A stretch of DNA of 64,000 nucleotides from an uncultured Pelagibacteraceae bacterium (GTDB lineage Bacteria; Pseudomonadota; Alphaproteobacteria; Pelagibacterales; Pelagibacteraceae). Where the stretch lies: positions 76,111 through 140,110 of the forward strand of contig CACPBW010000001.1 in NCBI GenBank assembly GCA_902632275.1, read 5' to 3'. Both the position numbers and the translations under genes were made by a program. Shown here piece by piece: positions 4,309 to 15,418 of this stretch. Positions within the stretch are counted from its first letter, which is position 1; every line of letters starts with the position of its first letter. The notes below the pieces were generated by a model. It ran no database searches and had not been told where the DNA came from. It saw nothing but the letters and a program-made list of their open reading frames with translations.

Positions 4309-4639
4309 AAGAAACAAAATATTTATGTATTAAATAGCCAACTACCAATAACAGTATTCCTGATCCATAAATTAAATAAAAATTCATACCAAAAGCCTTT
4401 GAAAAGAAAAAAGGCAAAAAGAACAAGTAACTTACTGGAATCGCAATTAATATACTCTTAGTAAAAGTTACAGTTTTATCTACGTCTTTGTATTCGTAGT
4501 ATGAAAATAAAATTGCTATTAATGAGACGATTGGTAATGCAATAATAAATCCTGCTAATTTTGGGTAAATACCAGATAACCAACTTGAAAAAGCTATTAT
4601 TAATGCTGCTATGATTATTTTAAATGTAAAAAATATCAT
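4301..4639 (-). CDS. Small integral membrane protein (DUF3147-like)
   Basis: A 112-residue protein with about four hydrophobic helices: residues 4-22, 27-47, 60-80 and 88-108. The pattern of a Pro/Gly-containing second helix (KLAGFIIALPIVSLIAILFSYYEY) resembles DUF3147-type proteins, but I recognise no catalytic motif. It lies 3 bases downstream of zur on the same strand and so probably shares the zinc-locus transcript. A role in metal transport is only inferred from position. Confidence 0.6.
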   Translation of the reverse strand: MIFFTFKIIIAALIIAFSSWLSGIYPKLAGFIIALPIVSLIAILFSYYEYKDVDKTVTFTKSILIAIPVSYLFFLPFFFSKAFGMNFYLIYGSGILLLVVGYLIHKYFVSFI

Positions 4640-4642
4640 GTT

Positions 4643-5041
4643 TTACTTTTTACATTTTTTACATAATCCAAAAAATTCTAAATTATACTTATTATATCTC
4701 ATACCAGTCTCATCCTGAAAATTAGCTAAATATTTAGAAAGTTTCGGATTGCTTATCTCTGTAACCATTTCACAGTTATCACATATTGAAAATGCTGTTG
4801 CGTTAGATATTGTACAACTATCGTTTTTACATGCTACAAAAGCATTTTTACTCTCAATTTTGTGAATTTTTCCAAGTTTAATTAATCTATCGAGCGCTCT
4901 ATATACTTGCGGAGGTGCTTTTATTCCTTTTTTTTGGACACTAAATAAAATTGAATAAGCTTTTAAAGGTTCTTTAGCTTTTTCAATAATTTCTAAAACT
5001 ATTTGTTGGTTTTTTGAGAGGAAATCTATTTTTTGTGTCAT
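4643..5041 (-). CDS. zur: Fur-family zinc uptake regulator
   Basis: A 132-residue Fur-family repressor. The N-terminal winged helix contains PPQVYRALDRLIKLGKIHKI (residues about 42-61), the conserved recognition-helix block. The C-terminal part has SICDNCEMV and GLCKKCKK, paired cysteines forming the structural zinc site. Placement directly downstream of znuCB and next to two dyads at the znuA/znuC promoter makes Zur far likelier than Fur or PerR. It should repress znuA and znuCB when zinc is replete. The spacer to znuB is 22 bases, consistent with one znuC-znuB-zur transcript. Confidence 0.9.
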   Translation of the reverse strand: MTQKIDFLSKNQQIVLEIIEKAKEPLKAYSILFSVQKKGIKAPPQVYRALDRLIKLGKIHKIESKNAFVACKNDSCTISNATAFSICDNCEMVTEISNPKLSKYLANFQDETGMRYNKYNLEFFGLCKKCKK

Positions 5042-9945: not shown

Positions 9946-12060
9946 ATGTCGTCTAAACATTTTTTTTTATTTTTACTTTTTTTCCTCTATATTTTTGGAT
10001 CTGATTCTTTTGCTGATTTGCAATTTAAACAATCAAAAGATATTTCTGATGATACTGATGACTTAAGAGGAATTTTTATAAAACCAGATGGAACAAGGGT
10101 ATACGTTACTTCTGATGATGCAACTCCTACAGTCATTGAATATTCATTAAATGTCCCATTTGATATCAGTACTGCTTCTAAAACTTCTCAAACCAATCTT
10201 TTGGTTTCAGGAGGTGCTGCTATGGATAAGCCCCATGCAATAGAATTTAAACCTGATGGAAAAGTCATGTATGTAATTCATAGTAATTCAGGATCGGTTG
10301 GTGTAGAACAGTTTAATCTTACTACTGCCTGGGATACTCAAACTTTATCATATGATACTAGCTTAAGTATTTCTGATGATGTTCAGATAAGAGCTCTAGC
10401 TTTTAAATCTGATGGTACTCGTGTGTATATCGCGCAAAGAGATTATGGAAAAGTCAAACAATTTGATTTAACAACACCATGGGACCTATCGAGTGCAACT
10501 AATAAAGTGGAGTCAAATTCTTTTTCAGGTGAAGAAAATAATTTAAGAAATATACAATTTAGTTCAGATGGAACCTTTATGTATTTAGGTGGAAATGGGG
10601 GAGATGATATTAATAGATATAAGCTGCCAATTGCATGGGATATAAGCACAATTACACATGAAACTACTTTTTCAATTAGCGCACAAACAGGTGAGATGCG
10701 AGGATTTAAATTTACAGCTAATTTTACAAAACTATATGTTACCGGAGATGACGGAAGCAGTTCAGATGACAATGTAATTTATGAATATGATCTTGATTGT
10801 GCTGGAACTATAACTTGTCTTGATGCATCAACTAATGCTGATGTTAAAGCTATCATCGAGGCAAATGTTGATACTGCTAAAAGAATAATAAAAAATAATA
10901 CTCTTCCAATATTTCATAGAACTGAATGGTTAAGAAGACATAAAAATAAAGATAACCTTTCGAACTTAAATGCAGAAATTGATTTTACAAATCAAAAAAT
11001 TGAAAAAATAGCTAATGCTCTAAACACTCTTAAAAAAGAAAAAGATAGAACCTATAATAGCGATGATTGGTTTGAATGGAGCGAAGGAAGAATTAGCTTT
11101 GGTAAAAAAGATACAAATGGTGCATCTTCAAGAGATATCTATAGTTATGGTTTTTCCATTGGTGCAGATAAGATTAAAAAAAGAGATAGAGATTCAATGT
11201 ATGGTTATGTTTTTCAATATACAAATGATGATGTTGAAATTGGAGGCAATGGTACAAATCTCAATACAGACTCATATGGTTTAGCTTTATACGAAACTAA
11301 GTTAAGAGATGATCAATTTTTTACAGATAGTGTTATTGGTTTTAATTTATTACATATTGACCATCAAAGAGTGACCTATGGCAACACTTTAAAAGGTGAT
11401 AGAGAGGGACAGCAAATATATGGTTCAATTAATTTTGGAAAAAGATTAGTTGAGGAAGAAATTAATTATAATCCAGGAATAAAATTAGATTTAGGATATA
11501 CAAAATTAAAAGCTTTTAGAGAAAAAACTACAGTAGGAAATGCTTTAACTGACTCATTAATCTACAAGGAACAAAATATTAAAACCGCATTAGCAACAAT
11601 TGGATTACTTTTTGATACAGCAAATCAGCAAGAAGAAAAAACTACCAATCATCATGGAAGATTAGAGTACGTAGCAGATTTTAGTCCATCTTCAAACGCT
11701 GAATTTTATTACGTAAATAATCAAAGTACTAATTATGAATATAAATCAAACAATAAATCTAGTCACAATTATAGAATTGGTTACGGTTTTGACATAACCT
11801 CTAAATCAGGTTGGTCGATAGTAACAAATTTTGAAAGATTTGGTGCATCTGGAGAAGGTTATGTTAATGAGCTATATTTATTATTAGGATATATTCCAAT
11901 AGATGATACCGAATATGCTATGAGTTTAGATAATGACAAAGCATCTCTAACTTATAAAAAAATTTTAAACAGTTTTGATATCAAAATGAGTTCAAATTAT
12001 AATTTCATCGGTGAAATCCCAGATTATGGTGCAAATTTAGAAATATCGAATAAATTTTAG
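9946..12060 (+). CDS. Autotransporter with beta-propeller passenger
   Basis: A 704-residue outer-membrane protein. A signal peptide ends near residue 24. The passenger (about residues 25-285) holds five propeller blades, each with an F-x-PDGT/SDGT-x-hydrophobic-Y core such as FIKPDGTRVYVT, FKPDGKVMYVI and FKSDGTRVYIA, as in lactonase-like or YVTN-type propellers. A coiled linker (about 315-365) leads to a C-terminal barrel of alternating hydrophobic strands ending in a terminal Phe (LEISNKF), the BAM signal. It likely displays a propeller at the cell surface; the ligand is unknown. This may be a variable surface gene. Confidence 0.8.
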   Translation: MSSKHFFLFLLFFLYIFGSDSFADLQFKQSKDISDDTDDLRGIFIKPDGTRVYVTSDDATPTVIEYSLNVPFDISTASKTSQTNLLVSGGAAMDKPHAIEFKPDGKVMYVIHSNSGSVGVEQFNLTTAWDTQTLSYDTSLSISDDVQIRALAFKSDGTRVYIAQRDYGKVKQFDLTTPWDLSSATNKVESNSFSGEENNLRNIQFSSDGTFMYLGGNGGDDINRYKLPIAWDISTITHETTFSISAQTGEMRGFKFTANFTKLYVTGDDGSSSDDNVIYEYDLDCAGTITCLDASTNADVKAIIEANVDTAKRIIKNNTLPIFHRTEWLRRHKNKDNLSNLNAEIDFTNQKIEKIANALNTLKKEKDRTYNSDDWFEWSEGRISFGKKDTNGASSRDIYSYGFSIGADKIKKRDRDSMYGYVFQYTNDDVEIGGNGTNLNTDSYGLALYETKLRDDQFFTDSVIGFNLLHIDHQRVTYGNTLKGDREGQQIYGSINFGKRLVEEEINYNPGIKLDLGYTKLKAFREKTTVGNALTDSLIYKEQNIKTALATIGLLFDTANQQEEKTTNHHGRLEYVADFSPSSNAEFYYVNNQSTNYEYKSNNKSSHNYRIGYGFDITSKSGWSIVTNFERFGASGEGYVNELYLLLGYIPIDDTEYAMSLDNDKASLTYKKILNSFDIKMSSNYNFIGEIPDYGANLEISNKF

Positions 12061-12359: not shown

Positions 12360-13052
12360 ATGAAAAAATTTAATTGGTTTATTATCATTGGATTATTTTT
12401 AATTTTTATATTCTTTATTAAAGAAAAAGTTGTTGAGAAATATTTTTTTTATAAGGTTTCTAAATGGCTAGAAAGAAGAGTAGATTTTGATGAATTTAAA
12501 TATAATTTTCCAGGCTATATATCTATTCAAGGATTTAAGGTACGTAATGAAGATACAAAATTTTATAAAAATACTTTTAATGCAGATAAAATTTTCTTAA
12601 ATATAGATTTAAATTCATACCTTTTTAAAAAACTTGTTATAATTAATGAATTAAAAATAGAAAACCCAGAATTTTATTTAGAAATTATTGAAAAAAAAAA
12701 TACATCTGATGATAATAAAGAAGAAAATGTTGAAAGTACTTTTAAAGATAATATTGGTATAGCTGAAAAGATCAATAATAAAGTGCCTGATAAAGTTTGG
12801 CCTGAAAAAATTAGAGATATAAATTTCTTAATTTTAAAGAGCTATATTATTAATGGAAAAGCATTTGTTAAAATTTCATCAATACCAAAACAATCAAATA
12901 TTGAACTTTCTTCTTTTGAATTTACCAATGTAGGCAATGATAAAAAATTTCAACATTATAAGAATGCATTAGAAATTATGTTATTTGACATACTAGGTCG
13001 AATTAATGATTTTGATAAACGAAAAATATTAGAAAAAGCTTATAATTTATAA
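12360..13052 (+). CDS. AsmA-like membrane-anchored protein
   Basis: A 230-residue protein starting at the ATG at 12360 (MKKFNWF). One N-terminal membrane helix (about 4-22) is followed by a beta-rich domain with PGYISIQGFKVRNED, ADKIFLNIDLNSYLFKKLVIINELKIENPEFYLEI. That pattern resembles the N-terminal repeat of AsmA/DUF748 lipid-transfer-type proteins, but truncated. A partial role at the envelope is plausible; the function is unknown. Confidence 0.5.
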   Translation: MKKFNWFIIIGLFLIFIFFIKEKVVEKYFFYKVSKWLERRVDFDEFKYNFPGYISIQGFKVRNEDTKFYKNTFNADKIFLNIDLNSYLFKKLVIINELKIENPEFYLEIIEKKNTSDDNKEENVESTFKDNIGIAEKINNKVPDKVWPEKIRDINFLILKSYIINGKAFVKISSIPKQSNIELSSFEFTNVGNDKKFQHYKNALEIMLFDILGRINDFDKRKILEKAYNL

Positions 13053-13070: not shown

Positions 13071-13187
13071 AGAAAAATAAAAAAATTTTACTTATTAATC
13101 TTGTTCAATTATAAATATTAGCATAAATACTCATGAAAATAACTTATGCCCTCGTGGTGAAATTGGTAGACACAAAGGACTTAAAAT
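13071..13187 (+). repeat. Duplicated tRNA-Leu promoter region plus 5' tRNA half (left copy)
   Basis: This direct repeat corresponds to 14487-14603. The tRNA part (13148-13187) is identical over 40 bases, from the acceptor 5' strand through the anticodon (GGACTTAAAAT), then diverges abruptly. The 77 bases upstream are similar with scattered differences. It lacks the 3' half of the tRNA, so it cannot make a tRNA. Confidence 0.9.
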
Positions 13188-13210
13188 AGTTTGAGTTGAG
13201 GAATCCCAGT

Positions 13211-13239
13211 GTCTCTAATAGTCTCTAATGGTCTTAATC
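13211..13239 (+). repeat. Tandem 10-base repeats, arm-site-like
   Basis: Three tandem units GTCTCTAATA, GTCTCTAATG and GTCTTAATC lie 24 bases inside the left tRNA-Leu fragment. A 10-base period means they face the same side of the helix, as integrase arm-type sites do. Confidence 0.6.
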
Positions 13240-13310
13240 CCTCATAATCCTATATTTTTTAAAATCATTGGATTATTTTTATTGGAAATTCTTACTAATT
13301 AATTTTCAGA

Positions 13311-13345
13311 TTCTCGGACCATTCTCGGACATAGAAAGATAAAAT
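13311..13345 (+). repeat. Repeat R1 (paired with R2 at 14461-14494)
   Basis: It contains two copies of TTCTCGGAC (13311-13319 and 13322-13330) followed by ATAGAAAGATAAAAT. A diverged copy, with CGTACCATTCTTGGAC and TAGGGAGATAAAAT, lies at 14461-14494 just before the intact tRNA-Leu upstream region. R1 and R2 enclose all three islet genes. Confidence 0.7.
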
Positions 13346-13359
13346 GATATATTGAGTTT

Positions 13360-13596
13360 ATGAAATTCTTTACAAATATAAATTTAATTAAAATTATAAT
13401 TATATATTGGATGGTTCTTATAATTGTGCAAATTTTTTTTGGAACCTTCACAGAGTTTGGTGCAAGAGAACAAATAACAGATACAAGTTTTAGGTTACCA
13501 AAGGTATATAAGTGGGGCTTGTTATTTAATTTTGTTATTCTAATTCCAGCATTTTTTGTTGTCATATTTAAAATAATTGGTTGGAAAAAAAGATAA
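13360..13596 (+). CDS. Small two-helix membrane protein of islet 1
   Basis: A 78-residue protein with hydrophobic helices at about residues 8-28 and 52-72. Between them is a soluble hairpin containing FGAREQITDTSFRLPKVYKWG. No family is recognised. It begins 15 bases after repeat R1 and is the first gene of the islet. Confidence 0.5.
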   Translation: MKFFTNINLIKIIIIYWMVLIIVQIFFGTFTEFGAREQITDTSFRLPKVYKWGLLFNFVILIPAFFVVIFKIIGWKKR

Positions 13597-13603
13597 TATA
13601 ATC

Positions 13604-13759
13604 ATGCTTATAATTAAATTTGATTCAAACATATCCTTATTCAAACTAGATGAATTTGTATTGCAATTTAAAGAAAAATATAAAAATGAAGAAATGCAAA
13701 TGAATTTTAAATTCAGTAACACAAAACTATTTGTTTATATTTATAGAAGGACACATTAA
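13604..13759 (+). CDS. Hypothetical 51-residue protein of islet 1
   Basis: I use the ATG at 13604 (MLIIKFDSNISLF); a longer frame starting at 13577 would overlap the preceding gene. The protein is small and basic, with alternating hydrophobic residues and no known motif. Its stop overlaps the next start (TAATG), so it is translationally coupled to the 222-residue gene. Confidence 0.45.
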   Translation: MLIIKFDSNISLFKLDEFVLQFKEKYKNEEMQMNFKFSNTKLFVYIYRRTH

Positions 13760-14427
13760 TGAAAAAATACGATTTTAATTTAAATACTCTTAAAAAAAAT
13801 TTTAATTTTAAAAACTTCTGTGAAGAACTAGATTATTTAGTAGGGCTCAGATATGAAAATTGGGATCTTTATAAAGAACAAGTTGGTATTTATAAATATC
13901 TTATTTATTTCTCATTTTACCAAAAAGTCCCATTATTAAATACTGTTATGGAAGCAGATGATACTTCAGAATTTGGCAAAGATTATCATATTATAGATAA
14001 GGAATTTGGTAGTAAAAAAAACTCCAAGATCAGAGAAGAAATTATCACAAAAATAGCTGATGGATCCATATTTGAATTTTTTAATGATAATTTTAAATTG
14101 ATTTATCATTTTCCTATGAATTGCTTTGTTGCCAGTTTAATTTACTCAAAGTTCAATAAAACATATTATCATATTGTTTTCCATCCTTTTGATTTAAAAA
14201 AGAAAAAAGATTTTGATTATAGTCTTCATCATGTAATAGATTTTTATGATAAAAAAATTTCTGAAAAAGTTTTCTTTAACGATATTTTAAAATATTATAG
14301 AGAGGATGTTTTAGGTTTTAATGATGGAAAGTTGATAAAAGGCCGAGATGAACATGAATTTCAAGATCTATATAATAAAAAGGTAAATTATTGGCGAAAA
14401 ATTGCTTATGATAATTTTGATAAATAA
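13759..14427 (+). CDS. Hypothetical 222-residue protein of islet 1
   Basis: A soluble protein rich in Lys, Phe, Tyr and Asp, with no signal peptide or membrane helix. It has conserved-looking aromatic and acidic clusters (ENWDLYKEQVGIYKYLIY, DDTSEFGKDYHIID, YHIVFHPFDL, RDEHEFQDLY). I recognise no family. Coupling to the 51-residue gene could suggest a two-component unit such as a toxin-antitoxin or immunity pair, but nothing in the sequence shows this. Confidence 0.6.
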   Translation: MKKYDFNLNTLKKNFNFKNFCEELDYLVGLRYENWDLYKEQVGIYKYLIYFSFYQKVPLLNTVMEADDTSEFGKDYHIIDKEFGSKKNSKIREEIITKIADGSIFEFFNDNFKLIYHFPMNCFVASLIYSKFNKTYYHIVFHPFDLKKKKDFDYSLHHVIDFYDKKISEKVFFNDILKYYREDVLGFNDGKLIKGRDEHEFQDLYNKKVNYWRKIAYDNFDK

Positions 14428-14460
14428 TAGATTGAATTTGTTTTGATATTTTATAAATAA

Positions 14461-14494
14461 ACTCGTACCATTCTTGGACATAGGGAGATAAAAT
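14461..14494 (+). repeat. Repeat R2 (paired with R1)
   Basis: A diverged copy of R1 containing CGTACCATTCTTGGAC and ATAGGGAGATAAAAT. It runs directly into the tRNA-Leu upstream region (from 14487). It marks the right inner boundary of islet 1. Confidence 0.65.
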
Positions 14495-14563
14495 AAAAAA
14501 AATTTACTTATAGGTCTTGTTCAATTATAAATATTGGCATAAACACTCATGAAAATAACTCAT

Positions 14564-14649
14564 GCCCTCGTGGTGAAATTGGTAGACACAAAGGACTTAA
14601 AATCCTTGCCCTTTTGGGAGTGCCAGTTCGAGTCTGGCCGAGGGCACCA
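14564..14649 (+). tRNA. tRNA-Leu(UAA)
   Basis: 86 bases including encoded CCA. The acceptor stem is GCCCTCG/CGAGGGC, the anticodon loop CTTAAAA reads TAA, a long class II variable arm (GCCCTTTTGGGAGT region) is present, and the T loop is TTCGAGT. It restores the gene cut by islet 1 and lies 4 bases before nadK, so the two are likely co-transcribed. Confidence 0.97.
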
Positions 14650-14653
14650 CTAA

Positions 14654-15418
14654 ATGTCAAAACCACAAATAATTTCTGACACTAATAAAAAATCATTAAG
14701 AATTAAATCTTTTATAAAAAACAAACTTTCGAAAATAAAATTAAAATATGTAAACATAGTCATTGGTGGTGATGGTTTTATGCTCAAAACTTTAAAAAGA
14801 AATAAGCATTCATCTAATTTTTTTTATGGAGTGAATTCTGGTGATTATGGTTTTTTAATGAATAAGTTTTCATCAAAAACAATTATAAAAAATATTAATA
14901 AGGCTAATTTAATTACTATCTCTCCATTAGAAATGAAAGTAACAAATAAGCAAGGATCGAAGAAAAAATATTTAGCAGTAAATGAAGTTTCAATTTTAAG
15001 ACAAAGTAGGCAAGCAGCCTCAGTTTTGATTAAGGTAGGATCAAAATTAATAATGAAGCGTTTAATTTCTGACGGTGTTTTAGTCTCAACACCTGCAGGG
15101 AGCACTGCTTACAATTTATCAGTAAGAGGACCTATTCTAAGCTTAAATTCAAAAAAACTATCTATAGCACCTATAAGCCCGTTTAGACCAAGGAGATGGA
15201 ATGGAAAAATAATTAATGAAAGCCATAAAGTTTTAATAAAAAATTTAAATATAAATAAAAGACCGATTAGTGCAGTTGCTGATAATATTGAGGTTAGAAA
15301 TGCAAAAATCATTGAGGTAAAAATAAATAAAAAAATTAAATTTAAACTTTTATATGACAAAAATAGAGGGCTCCAAAAAAAAATCAAAATAGAACAATTA
15401 AGAAAAGAAACTAATTAG
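14654..15418 (+). CDS. nadK: NAD kinase
   Basis: A 254-residue enzyme that phosphorylates NAD to NADP. The signature GGDGFML (residues 38-44) and the second glycine-rich block DGVLVSTPAGSTAY (about 142-155) are both present, with the NEVSIL motif between them. It starts 4 bases after tRNA-Leu and its stop is 1 base before the next gene. Confidence 0.95.
   Translation: MSKPQIISDTNKKSLRIKSFIKNKLSKIKLKYVNIVIGGDGFMLKTLKRNKHSSNFFYGVNSGDYGFLMNKFSSKTIIKNINKANLITISPLEMKVTNKQGSKKKYLAVNEVSILRQSRQAASVLIKVGSKLIMKRLISDGVLVSTPAGSTAYNLSVRGPILSLNSKKLSIAPISPFRPRRWNGKIINESHKVLIKNLNINKRPISAVADNIEVRNAKIIEVKINKKIKFKLLYDKNRGLQKKIKIEQLRKETN

Follow-up and report, generated by a model that had tools for sequence, protein, structure and literature searches.

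The short islet beside the tRNA-Leu(UAA) gene in the window, by which we mean the whole 64,000-nucleotide stretch of uncultured Pelagibacteraceae DNA under analysis, is very probably a non-autonomous site-specific integrating cassette. Such cassettes would be inserted and accumulated in trans by a tyrosine recombinase of satellite or phage origin, each of them supplying the tRNA gene with a new 5′ half and promoter. Comparison of the site among relatives shows precise ends, matching repeat pairs, empty sites, arrays, unrelated cargo, near-identity of cassettes across species and integrase-bearing elements at the same position. What the first-pass annotation described as a single islet is, on this comparison, one member of a large cassette family.

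A repeat search of the window identified a 114-nt direct repeat, at 13074-13187 and 14490-14603, whose copies are 94% identical and spaced 1416 nt apart. The intact tRNA-Leu(UAA) at 14564-14649 is the only such gene that ARAGORN calls in the window; the upstream copy is not called. The two 5′ halves (13148-13187 and 14564-14603, 40 nt each) are identical, with all mismatches of the repeat lying in the upstream 74 nt, and the identity spans the entire 7-nt anticodon loop CTTAAAA plus one T (13180-13187). The earlier claims of a duplicated promoter region and tRNA 5′ half, with identity stopping at the anticodon loop, are thereby borne out, as is the claim that three genes without assigned function lie between the copies (ORFs of 78, 51 and 222 aa, none with a Pfam family above cut-off). 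The islet had also been said to lack an integrase, and none was found among its ORFs by the ORF list and the Pfam scan; the single integrase match in genome G000 sits on another contig, outside the islet. A second, shorter repeat of 33 nt lies just inside both ends of the islet (13313-13345 and 14462-14494, 88%), and its 20-nt core has two matches in the window versus none in 100 shuffles. The features of the locus are as follows.

12361 to 13052, + strand: DUF748/AsmA-like gene on the left flank of the islet, an ORF with a weak Pfam DUF748 match (E = 1e-4, below the cut-off).
13074 to 13147, + strand: displaced upstream block (promoter region) preceding the displaced 5′ half, part of the first copy of the 114-nt repeat.
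13148 to 13187, + strand: displaced 5′ half of tRNA-Leu(UAA), ending with the anticodon loop CTTAAAA (13180-13186); identical to 14564-14603, no tRNA call.
13188 to 13311, + strand: cassette left end of the TAGTTTGAG type, with AGTCT-like iterons of 10-bp period (about 13209-13236); the type also occurs in 10 other genomes of the family.
13312 to 13345, + strand: left direct-repeat pair TCTCGGAC-cat-TCTCGGAC plus tail, a putative integrase arm site, 126 nt from the loop as in other cassettes.
13360 to 13596, + strand: cargo ORF of 78 aa, hydrophobic, no Pfam family above cut-off.
13604 to 13759, + strand: cargo ORF of 51 aa (from ATG), no Pfam family.
13759 to 14427, + strand: cargo ORF of 222 aa, no Pfam or PADLOC family.
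14462 to 14489, + strand: right direct-repeat pair CTCGTAC-cat-TCTTGGAC plus a GGGAGAT tail; 17 of 19 bases match the left pair.
14490 to 14563, + strand: element-side promoter block now preceding the working tRNA, part of the 114-nt repeat; the element-type block recurs at the right ends of other cassettes.
14564 to 14603, + strand: working 5′ half of tRNA-Leu(UAA), probably supplied by the cassette, identified by the repeat and ARAGORN; the chimera is seen directly in G226.
14604 to 14649, + strand: host 3′ half of tRNA-Leu(UAA), single copy, 3′ end unduplicated.
14654 to 15418, + strand: nadK (NAD kinase), the conserved right flank (Pfam NAD_kinase_C, E = 4e-10), which adjoins the tRNA in most relatives examined.

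The 222-aa cargo gene has one homologue among 300 genomes of the genus, at a different locus. Consensus scans of the islet for promoters and terminators gave matches at chance level only. Because its right repeat pair is imperfect and the TATAGGAT motif is absent, the window cassette may no longer be mobile. Upstream of the islet, at 9946-12060, lies a gene for a 704-aa protein with an autotransporter domain that is homologous to cassette cargo in G017 (L032) and G035 (L038). This gene may belong to an older cassette with decayed ends, and a search for such ends in the upstream region of the window found none.

The anatomy of the cassettes was established on 40 islets, 38 without and 2 with an integrase gene, five more intervals with degenerate copies or ends being left out. 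Each starts with the displaced 5′ half, up to the anticodon loop, followed by a left end in which three AGTCY iterons recur with a 10-bp period and AATCC is repeated, and then by a left direct-repeat pair (8 bp, 11-bp spacing) that in the integrase-less islets lies 124-128 nt from the loop. After the cargo there is usually TATAGGATTTTATAGGATAAC, then a matching direct-repeat pair, GAGAGAT, the promoter block and the 5′ half. The repeat sequences vary among islets (ACTAGAAC, ACCAGTAC, CTCGGAC, ACTTGTAC and others, about 20 types being seen), and left-end type and repeat type go together. Within an islet the left and right pairs match: the mean longest common string was 13.2 nt versus 6.8 nt for mismatched pairs, a difference reached in 0 of 10,000 permutations over the 40 islets. 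In a second set of remnants, overlapping the first in part, the repeat pair was present in 80 of 86, at 124-128 nt in 78 of them, versus 6 of 80 control windows. The left-end type of the window (TAGTTTGA) was found in 10 further genomes among 397 of the family, one of them from another genus. All ten of these islets have matching ends and measure 1.7-5.3 kb; their cargo is mostly unrelated, and the loci retrieved contain no homologue of the satellite integrases. Judged by position, spacing and matching, the repeat pairs at the two ends are most probably arm sites for an integrase. With matching repeats of arm type to either side of a common core, the cassettes belong among site-specific elements of the tyrosine-recombinase type, binding by an integrase being presumed.

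Many left ends (e.g. L033 from 4833) begin with GCCGAGGG, which is complementary to the 5′ strand of the tRNA acceptor stem, and the AGTCC iterons of left ends are complementary to GGACT of the anticodon stem. The GCCGAGGG complementarity prompted us to consider a fold in which the displaced 5′ half and the left end mimic an acceptor stem; this was rejected, as averaged pairing probabilities favour other pairs.

About 50 integrase-less cassettes of 1-6 kb, with mostly unrelated cargo, were mapped at tRNA-Leu(UAA) in SAR11. Multiple copies of the block, at varied spacing, lie upstream of tRNA-Leu and nadK in many of the 61 genomes searched. An exact 27-nt motif occurs in 203 of 300 genomes of the genus, and 73 of these 203 have two to four copies by manual count of the table; interval lengths at the site range from 975 to 8806 nt (45 intervals). 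A scan of GTDB genomes gave at least 120 stretches, and since these come mostly from single-cell genomes, judging by their titles, binning artefacts are unlikely to explain the multi-copy pattern. There are also genes between the tRNA and nadK in G016 (L031), G019 (L042) and G007 (L040), and genes after the tRNA in G015 (L041). Insertion of the 3′ type was considered for these four genomes and rejected, as none has a duplicated tRNA 3′ end; with extra genes present there and no such duplication, the 3′ side is variable too, by another route.

A scan of 84 cargo proteins revealed restriction-modification genes, caspase-domain proteins, trypsin-like proteases, autotransporters, transporters and metabolic enzymes, together with type IV pilin-like proteins in arrays. 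At L095 (5228-10780) and L100 (3867-9553) the pilin-like genes, with FTLIELLVVVAIIGILAAVGVVAYNGY starts, stand in tandem, up to about nine per cassette. Over all islets, those with an integrase too, 127 of 139 ORFs of 60 aa or more run in the direction of the tRNA, so that the displaced tRNA promoter could express the cargo.

Nearly identical cassettes, as sequence comparison indicates, have moved between species, some of them recently. G711 and G505 have cassettes 99.4% identical over 2735 nt and nadK regions 76.6% identical, the nearly identical stretch being bounded by the tRNA on both sides, and G010 and G718 are 98.9% identical in the cassette versus 86.9% on the nadK side. Unrelated cassettes occupy the site in the window and in G017, whose sequences agree at 98.5% over the 2.2 kb that take in the tRNA region and nadK. 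The first cassettes of L108 and L109, which come from different genomes (from 3731 and 3715, respectively, on the tRNA strand), are 99.4% identical over the first 857 nt of cargo and different thereafter, and their repeat pairs differ; this common stretch points to recombination within cassettes, as if cargo had been swapped between end types. Such observations could also be accommodated if imported DNA were exchanged chiefly through homologous recombination between the 114-nt blocks, site-specific integration having occurred only long ago, which we consider unlikely. The blocks are indeed long and conserved, the fall in identity between G017 and the window from 98.5% on the nadK side to about 80% upstream indicates a recombination boundary at the tRNA, and the 857 nt of common cargo followed by divergence would fit as well. 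However, this explanation does not tell why cassettes form arrays, why they end exactly at the anticodon loop, or why the repeat pairs match and keep so strictly to 124-128 nt, and the identity between G711 and G505 ends at the tRNA on both sides. We prefer site-specific integration of cassettes, to which homologous recombination across the 114-nt blocks may add.

Relatives with an integrase at this site, which the first-pass annotation had suggested looking for, do exist. Searches of 83 genomes with PF00589 found an integrase within the islet only in G144 and G192, and a protein search of 399 genomes of the genus added G226 at the site and G350, G182 and G183 elsewhere. Integrases of this satellite family occur in 6 of the 399 genomes, far fewer than the cassettes. 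A resident integrase was considered and rejected: in most genomes of the genus with a PF00589 match there is a single such gene, of about 325 aa, and this length suggests a core recombinase of the Xer type. Besides its integrase, the G144 element encodes an AEP-type primase/DUF5906 protein and a RusA-like resolvase; none of the proteins tested was structural, and the G192 and G226 elements have gene sets similar to it by inspection. The first 50 nt of the left end of the G192 element match those of an integrase-less cassette of G163 (L097) at 49 bases, and those of the G144 element agree at 46 of 50 with a cassette of G009, also without integrase. In G226 the left end of the element is of a different type, and the element stands next to the tRNA, at the end of a row of integrase-less cassettes.

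Related ends were also seen at other sites. The element of G350 (L124, G350:C2; reverse strand, about 4400-4660 and 13458-13547) bears an integrase and uses the same 5′-half mode at tRNA-Ser(UGA), and another cassette-type right end (TATAGGATTTTATAGGACAAC and ACTTGAAG repeats) lies directly upstream of its displaced 5′ half. At L172 (G239:C4, near 47508) and L173 (G031:C8, near 17222) right ends of the cassette type occur with no tRNA; that of L173, and probably that of L172, lies directly against the beginning of a gene for a small protein (MNKENASKLWKIIQ...), so that the 5′ region of a protein gene may be a further attachment site.

No helper integrase with the left-end type of the window was found in the genomes sampled. 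Scans of IMG/VR with patterns for two left-end types and one promoter variant gave no match and no free circular or packaged cassette, and neither IMG/VR nor INPHARED yielded a relative of the G144 integrase under the limits applied. Two IMG/VR contigs with T7-like phage genes, L061 (1-350) and L062 (1-100), carry a tRNA-Leu(UAA) 5′ half ending at the anticodon loop, and in L061 the upstream block is also present, seen in full; these halves are candidate attP sites of pelagiphages. It is conceivable, and in our judgement improbable, that a pelagiphage integrase moves the cassettes in place of a satellite integrase. Beyond these two contigs, the idea draws on pelagiphage-like genomes with a tRNA-Leu fragment (PMC3861242) and on pelagiphages that integrate in tRNA-Leu(TAG) (PMC6811365). 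L061, however, has neither a cassette-type left end nor a repeat pair beyond the loop, whereas two satellites match cassettes at 46-49 of 50 terminal bases.

The same similarity of left ends to the G192 and G144 satellites, and the occurrence of integrase-bearing elements at the same site, could mean that the cassettes are CIME-like remnants of integrase-bearing satellites, decayed by deletion and now immobile. This, too, we consider improbable: cassettes with intact matched ends greatly outnumber integrase-bearing elements, most carry unrelated cargo and no satellite genes, and some have moved recently between species.

That insertion at the anticodon loop had brought a new 5′ half and promoter, as the first-pass annotation proposed, is supported by empty sites in relatives. 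In G236 the block is present only once, and the locus is collinear with that of G130 on either side: the left flank is 92% identical over 562 nt up to the anticodon loop, the right flank 82% identical over 942 nt, and the flanks, contiguous in G236 with an overlap of a 117-nt block, are separated in G130 by two cassettes. G072 is likewise the empty counterpart of G239, G111 and G187. In occupied genomes (e.g. G130) the outermost copy has the upstream block of empty sites and the working tRNA has an element-type block. Because the outermost block is of the empty-site type, the displaced copy comes from the host and the working 5′ half from the element; the same logic, from G236/G130 and G072/G239, would make the block at 13074-13147 of the window the older, host-side copy. 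The claim that the working tRNA is a chimera holds directly in G226, where two bases set the working 5′ half apart from the displaced copies; in the window, where both 40-nt halves are identical, a chimera is probable from the relatives. An old tandem duplication of the tRNA 5′ region, with genes gained later and no site-specific recombination, would yield two copies in the same orientation at 94% identity, but it is rejected with near certainty on the strength of the empty sites and of the transfer of a near-identical cassette between two species with divergent flanks, and also because the same repeats enclose different cargo in dozens of genomes, with conserved internal ends and matched repeat pairs, where such a duplication would have left no empty sites and the same genes in all relatives.

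These observations can be assembled into a mechanism. The attP of a circular form would consist of the left end and the right end, with their matching pair of arm sites, and the captured tRNA-Leu promoter and 5′ half up to the anticodon loop. Strands would be exchanged within the 7 bp of the anticodon loop by a tyrosine recombinase, for which a phage satellite, co-resident or transient, is the likeliest source. Tyrosine recombinases that act at tRNA anticodon loops use a 7-bp overlap between core-binding sites, and the 7-nt loop, flanked by the inverted repeat of the anticodon stem, fits such an arrangement. The host 5′ half and promoter would be pushed upstream and the cassette would provide new ones, leaving the tRNA intact, and since the tRNA would be intact after each insertion the site could be used again. 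Repeated rounds would build arrays with the newest cassette beside the tRNA 3′ half, and the displaced tRNA promoter would drive the cargo. We infer the role of the repeats as arm sites, the supply of integrase in trans, the order of insertion and the expression of cargo from the displaced promoter; action in trans by satellite integrases is the best inference, and the end type of the window has no sampled helper. The roughly 20 repeat types, which outnumber the few known integrases, and the restriction of this satellite family's integrases to 6 of 399 genomes count against the mechanism, as do the failure to find a helper for the window's end type and the lack of any free circular or packaged cassette in the IMG/VR scans.

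SAR11 bacteria are among the commonest in the ocean and are its most abundant heterotrophs. Single-cell data suggest that marine prokaryoplankton gain and keep about 13% of their genes per million years, by vectors that are partly unknown (PMC12416821), and the hypervariable regions of SAR11 were noted to be without integron attC sites (PMC2217521). The tRNA-Leu locus offers a concrete and testable vehicle of gene gain, with precise ends, a predicted attP, candidate integrases and varied cargo, in which mobile DNA repeatedly replaces the promoter and half the body of a tRNA gene. Tentatively, and with slightly less than even confidence, we suggest that SAR11 has a general, non-integron system of cassette exchange, with standardized ends, a diversified repeat code, stacking at class II tRNA genes (Leu-UAA, Ser-UGA) and at one or more sites besides, satellite integrases acting in trans, a displaced tRNA promoter expressing the cargo and new cassettes re-supplying the tRNA promoter. 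If this is true, cassette exchange could be a major route of gene gain in the most abundant heterotrophs of the ocean.

The 5′-half mode of integration is known but rare. We found no earlier description of an integrase-less cassette family of this kind in the open-access literature searched, and the family appears to be undescribed, a real and widespread variant of known integrating elements. The Islander collection lists 159 islands with 5′ fragments versus 3760 with 3′ fragments, and its paper describes classes of attachment site in tRNA genes, the anticodon loop among them (PMC4383910). The cassettes resemble such islands in the tyrosine-recombinase type of tRNA insertion, the displaced fragment, the restored gene and the anticodon-loop class of crossover, but they restore the 5′ half and promoter, carry no integrase, are often below 2 kb and stand in arrays with as many as four copies. 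The Islander algorithm would miss such elements, because it accepts a candidate only if this has an integrase and reaches 2 kb (PMC4383910). The window islet has the same-orientation tDNA and displaced fragment around it, no integrase inside, and a length of 1416 nt, short of the 2-200 kb range.

In T7-like cyanophages the attP is the first half (39 bp) of a tRNA-Leu gene (PMC8776855), and some pelagiphages carry tRNA-Leu fragments (PMC3861242) or integrate in tRNA-Leu(TAG) (PMC6811365). The use of a tRNA-Leu half or fragment as attachment sequence is common to these phages and the cassettes; the phages have their own integrase, whereas the cassettes are cargo only, have other ends and target tRNA-Leu(UAA). 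Tycheposons are described as elements of 4-200 kb with a tyrosine recombinase (PMC10872708, PMC11389934); as described there, tycheposons and VEIMEs are, like the cassettes, marine tRNA-gene elements with cargo and satellite-like members, and by that description the cassettes differ from tycheposons in being mostly smaller, in lacking a recombinase and in entering the 5′ half. At this site a tyrosine recombinase occurs only in the rare integrase-bearing elements and not in the islet. The islet also lacks what marks a phage satellite (PICI/VEIME-like), namely an integrase together with genes related to replication or packaging but no complete virion gene set; the G144 element shows this in part.

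CIMEs keep attL and attR without integration genes, undergo tandem accretion and are viewed as decayed ICEs or IMEs (PMC5704250). The islet likewise keeps matched ends without integrase or transfer genes; the cassettes differ in their standardized ends, in cargo unlike that of satellites and in their recent movement as separate units. As to decay from an ICE or IME, the left ends are common to cassettes and satellites, whereas the cargo bears no relation to satellite genes, and genes for conjugation were not seen. The cassettes also work like a CALIN (PMC11389934) in that small units of unrelated cargo form arrays, possibly transcribed from a promoter upstream and presumably moved by an integrase encoded elsewhere. 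They appear to differ from integrons and CALINs in that the att site is half of a tRNA gene with long conserved ends; no attC-type site was noticed, and the end sequences seen are of another construction.
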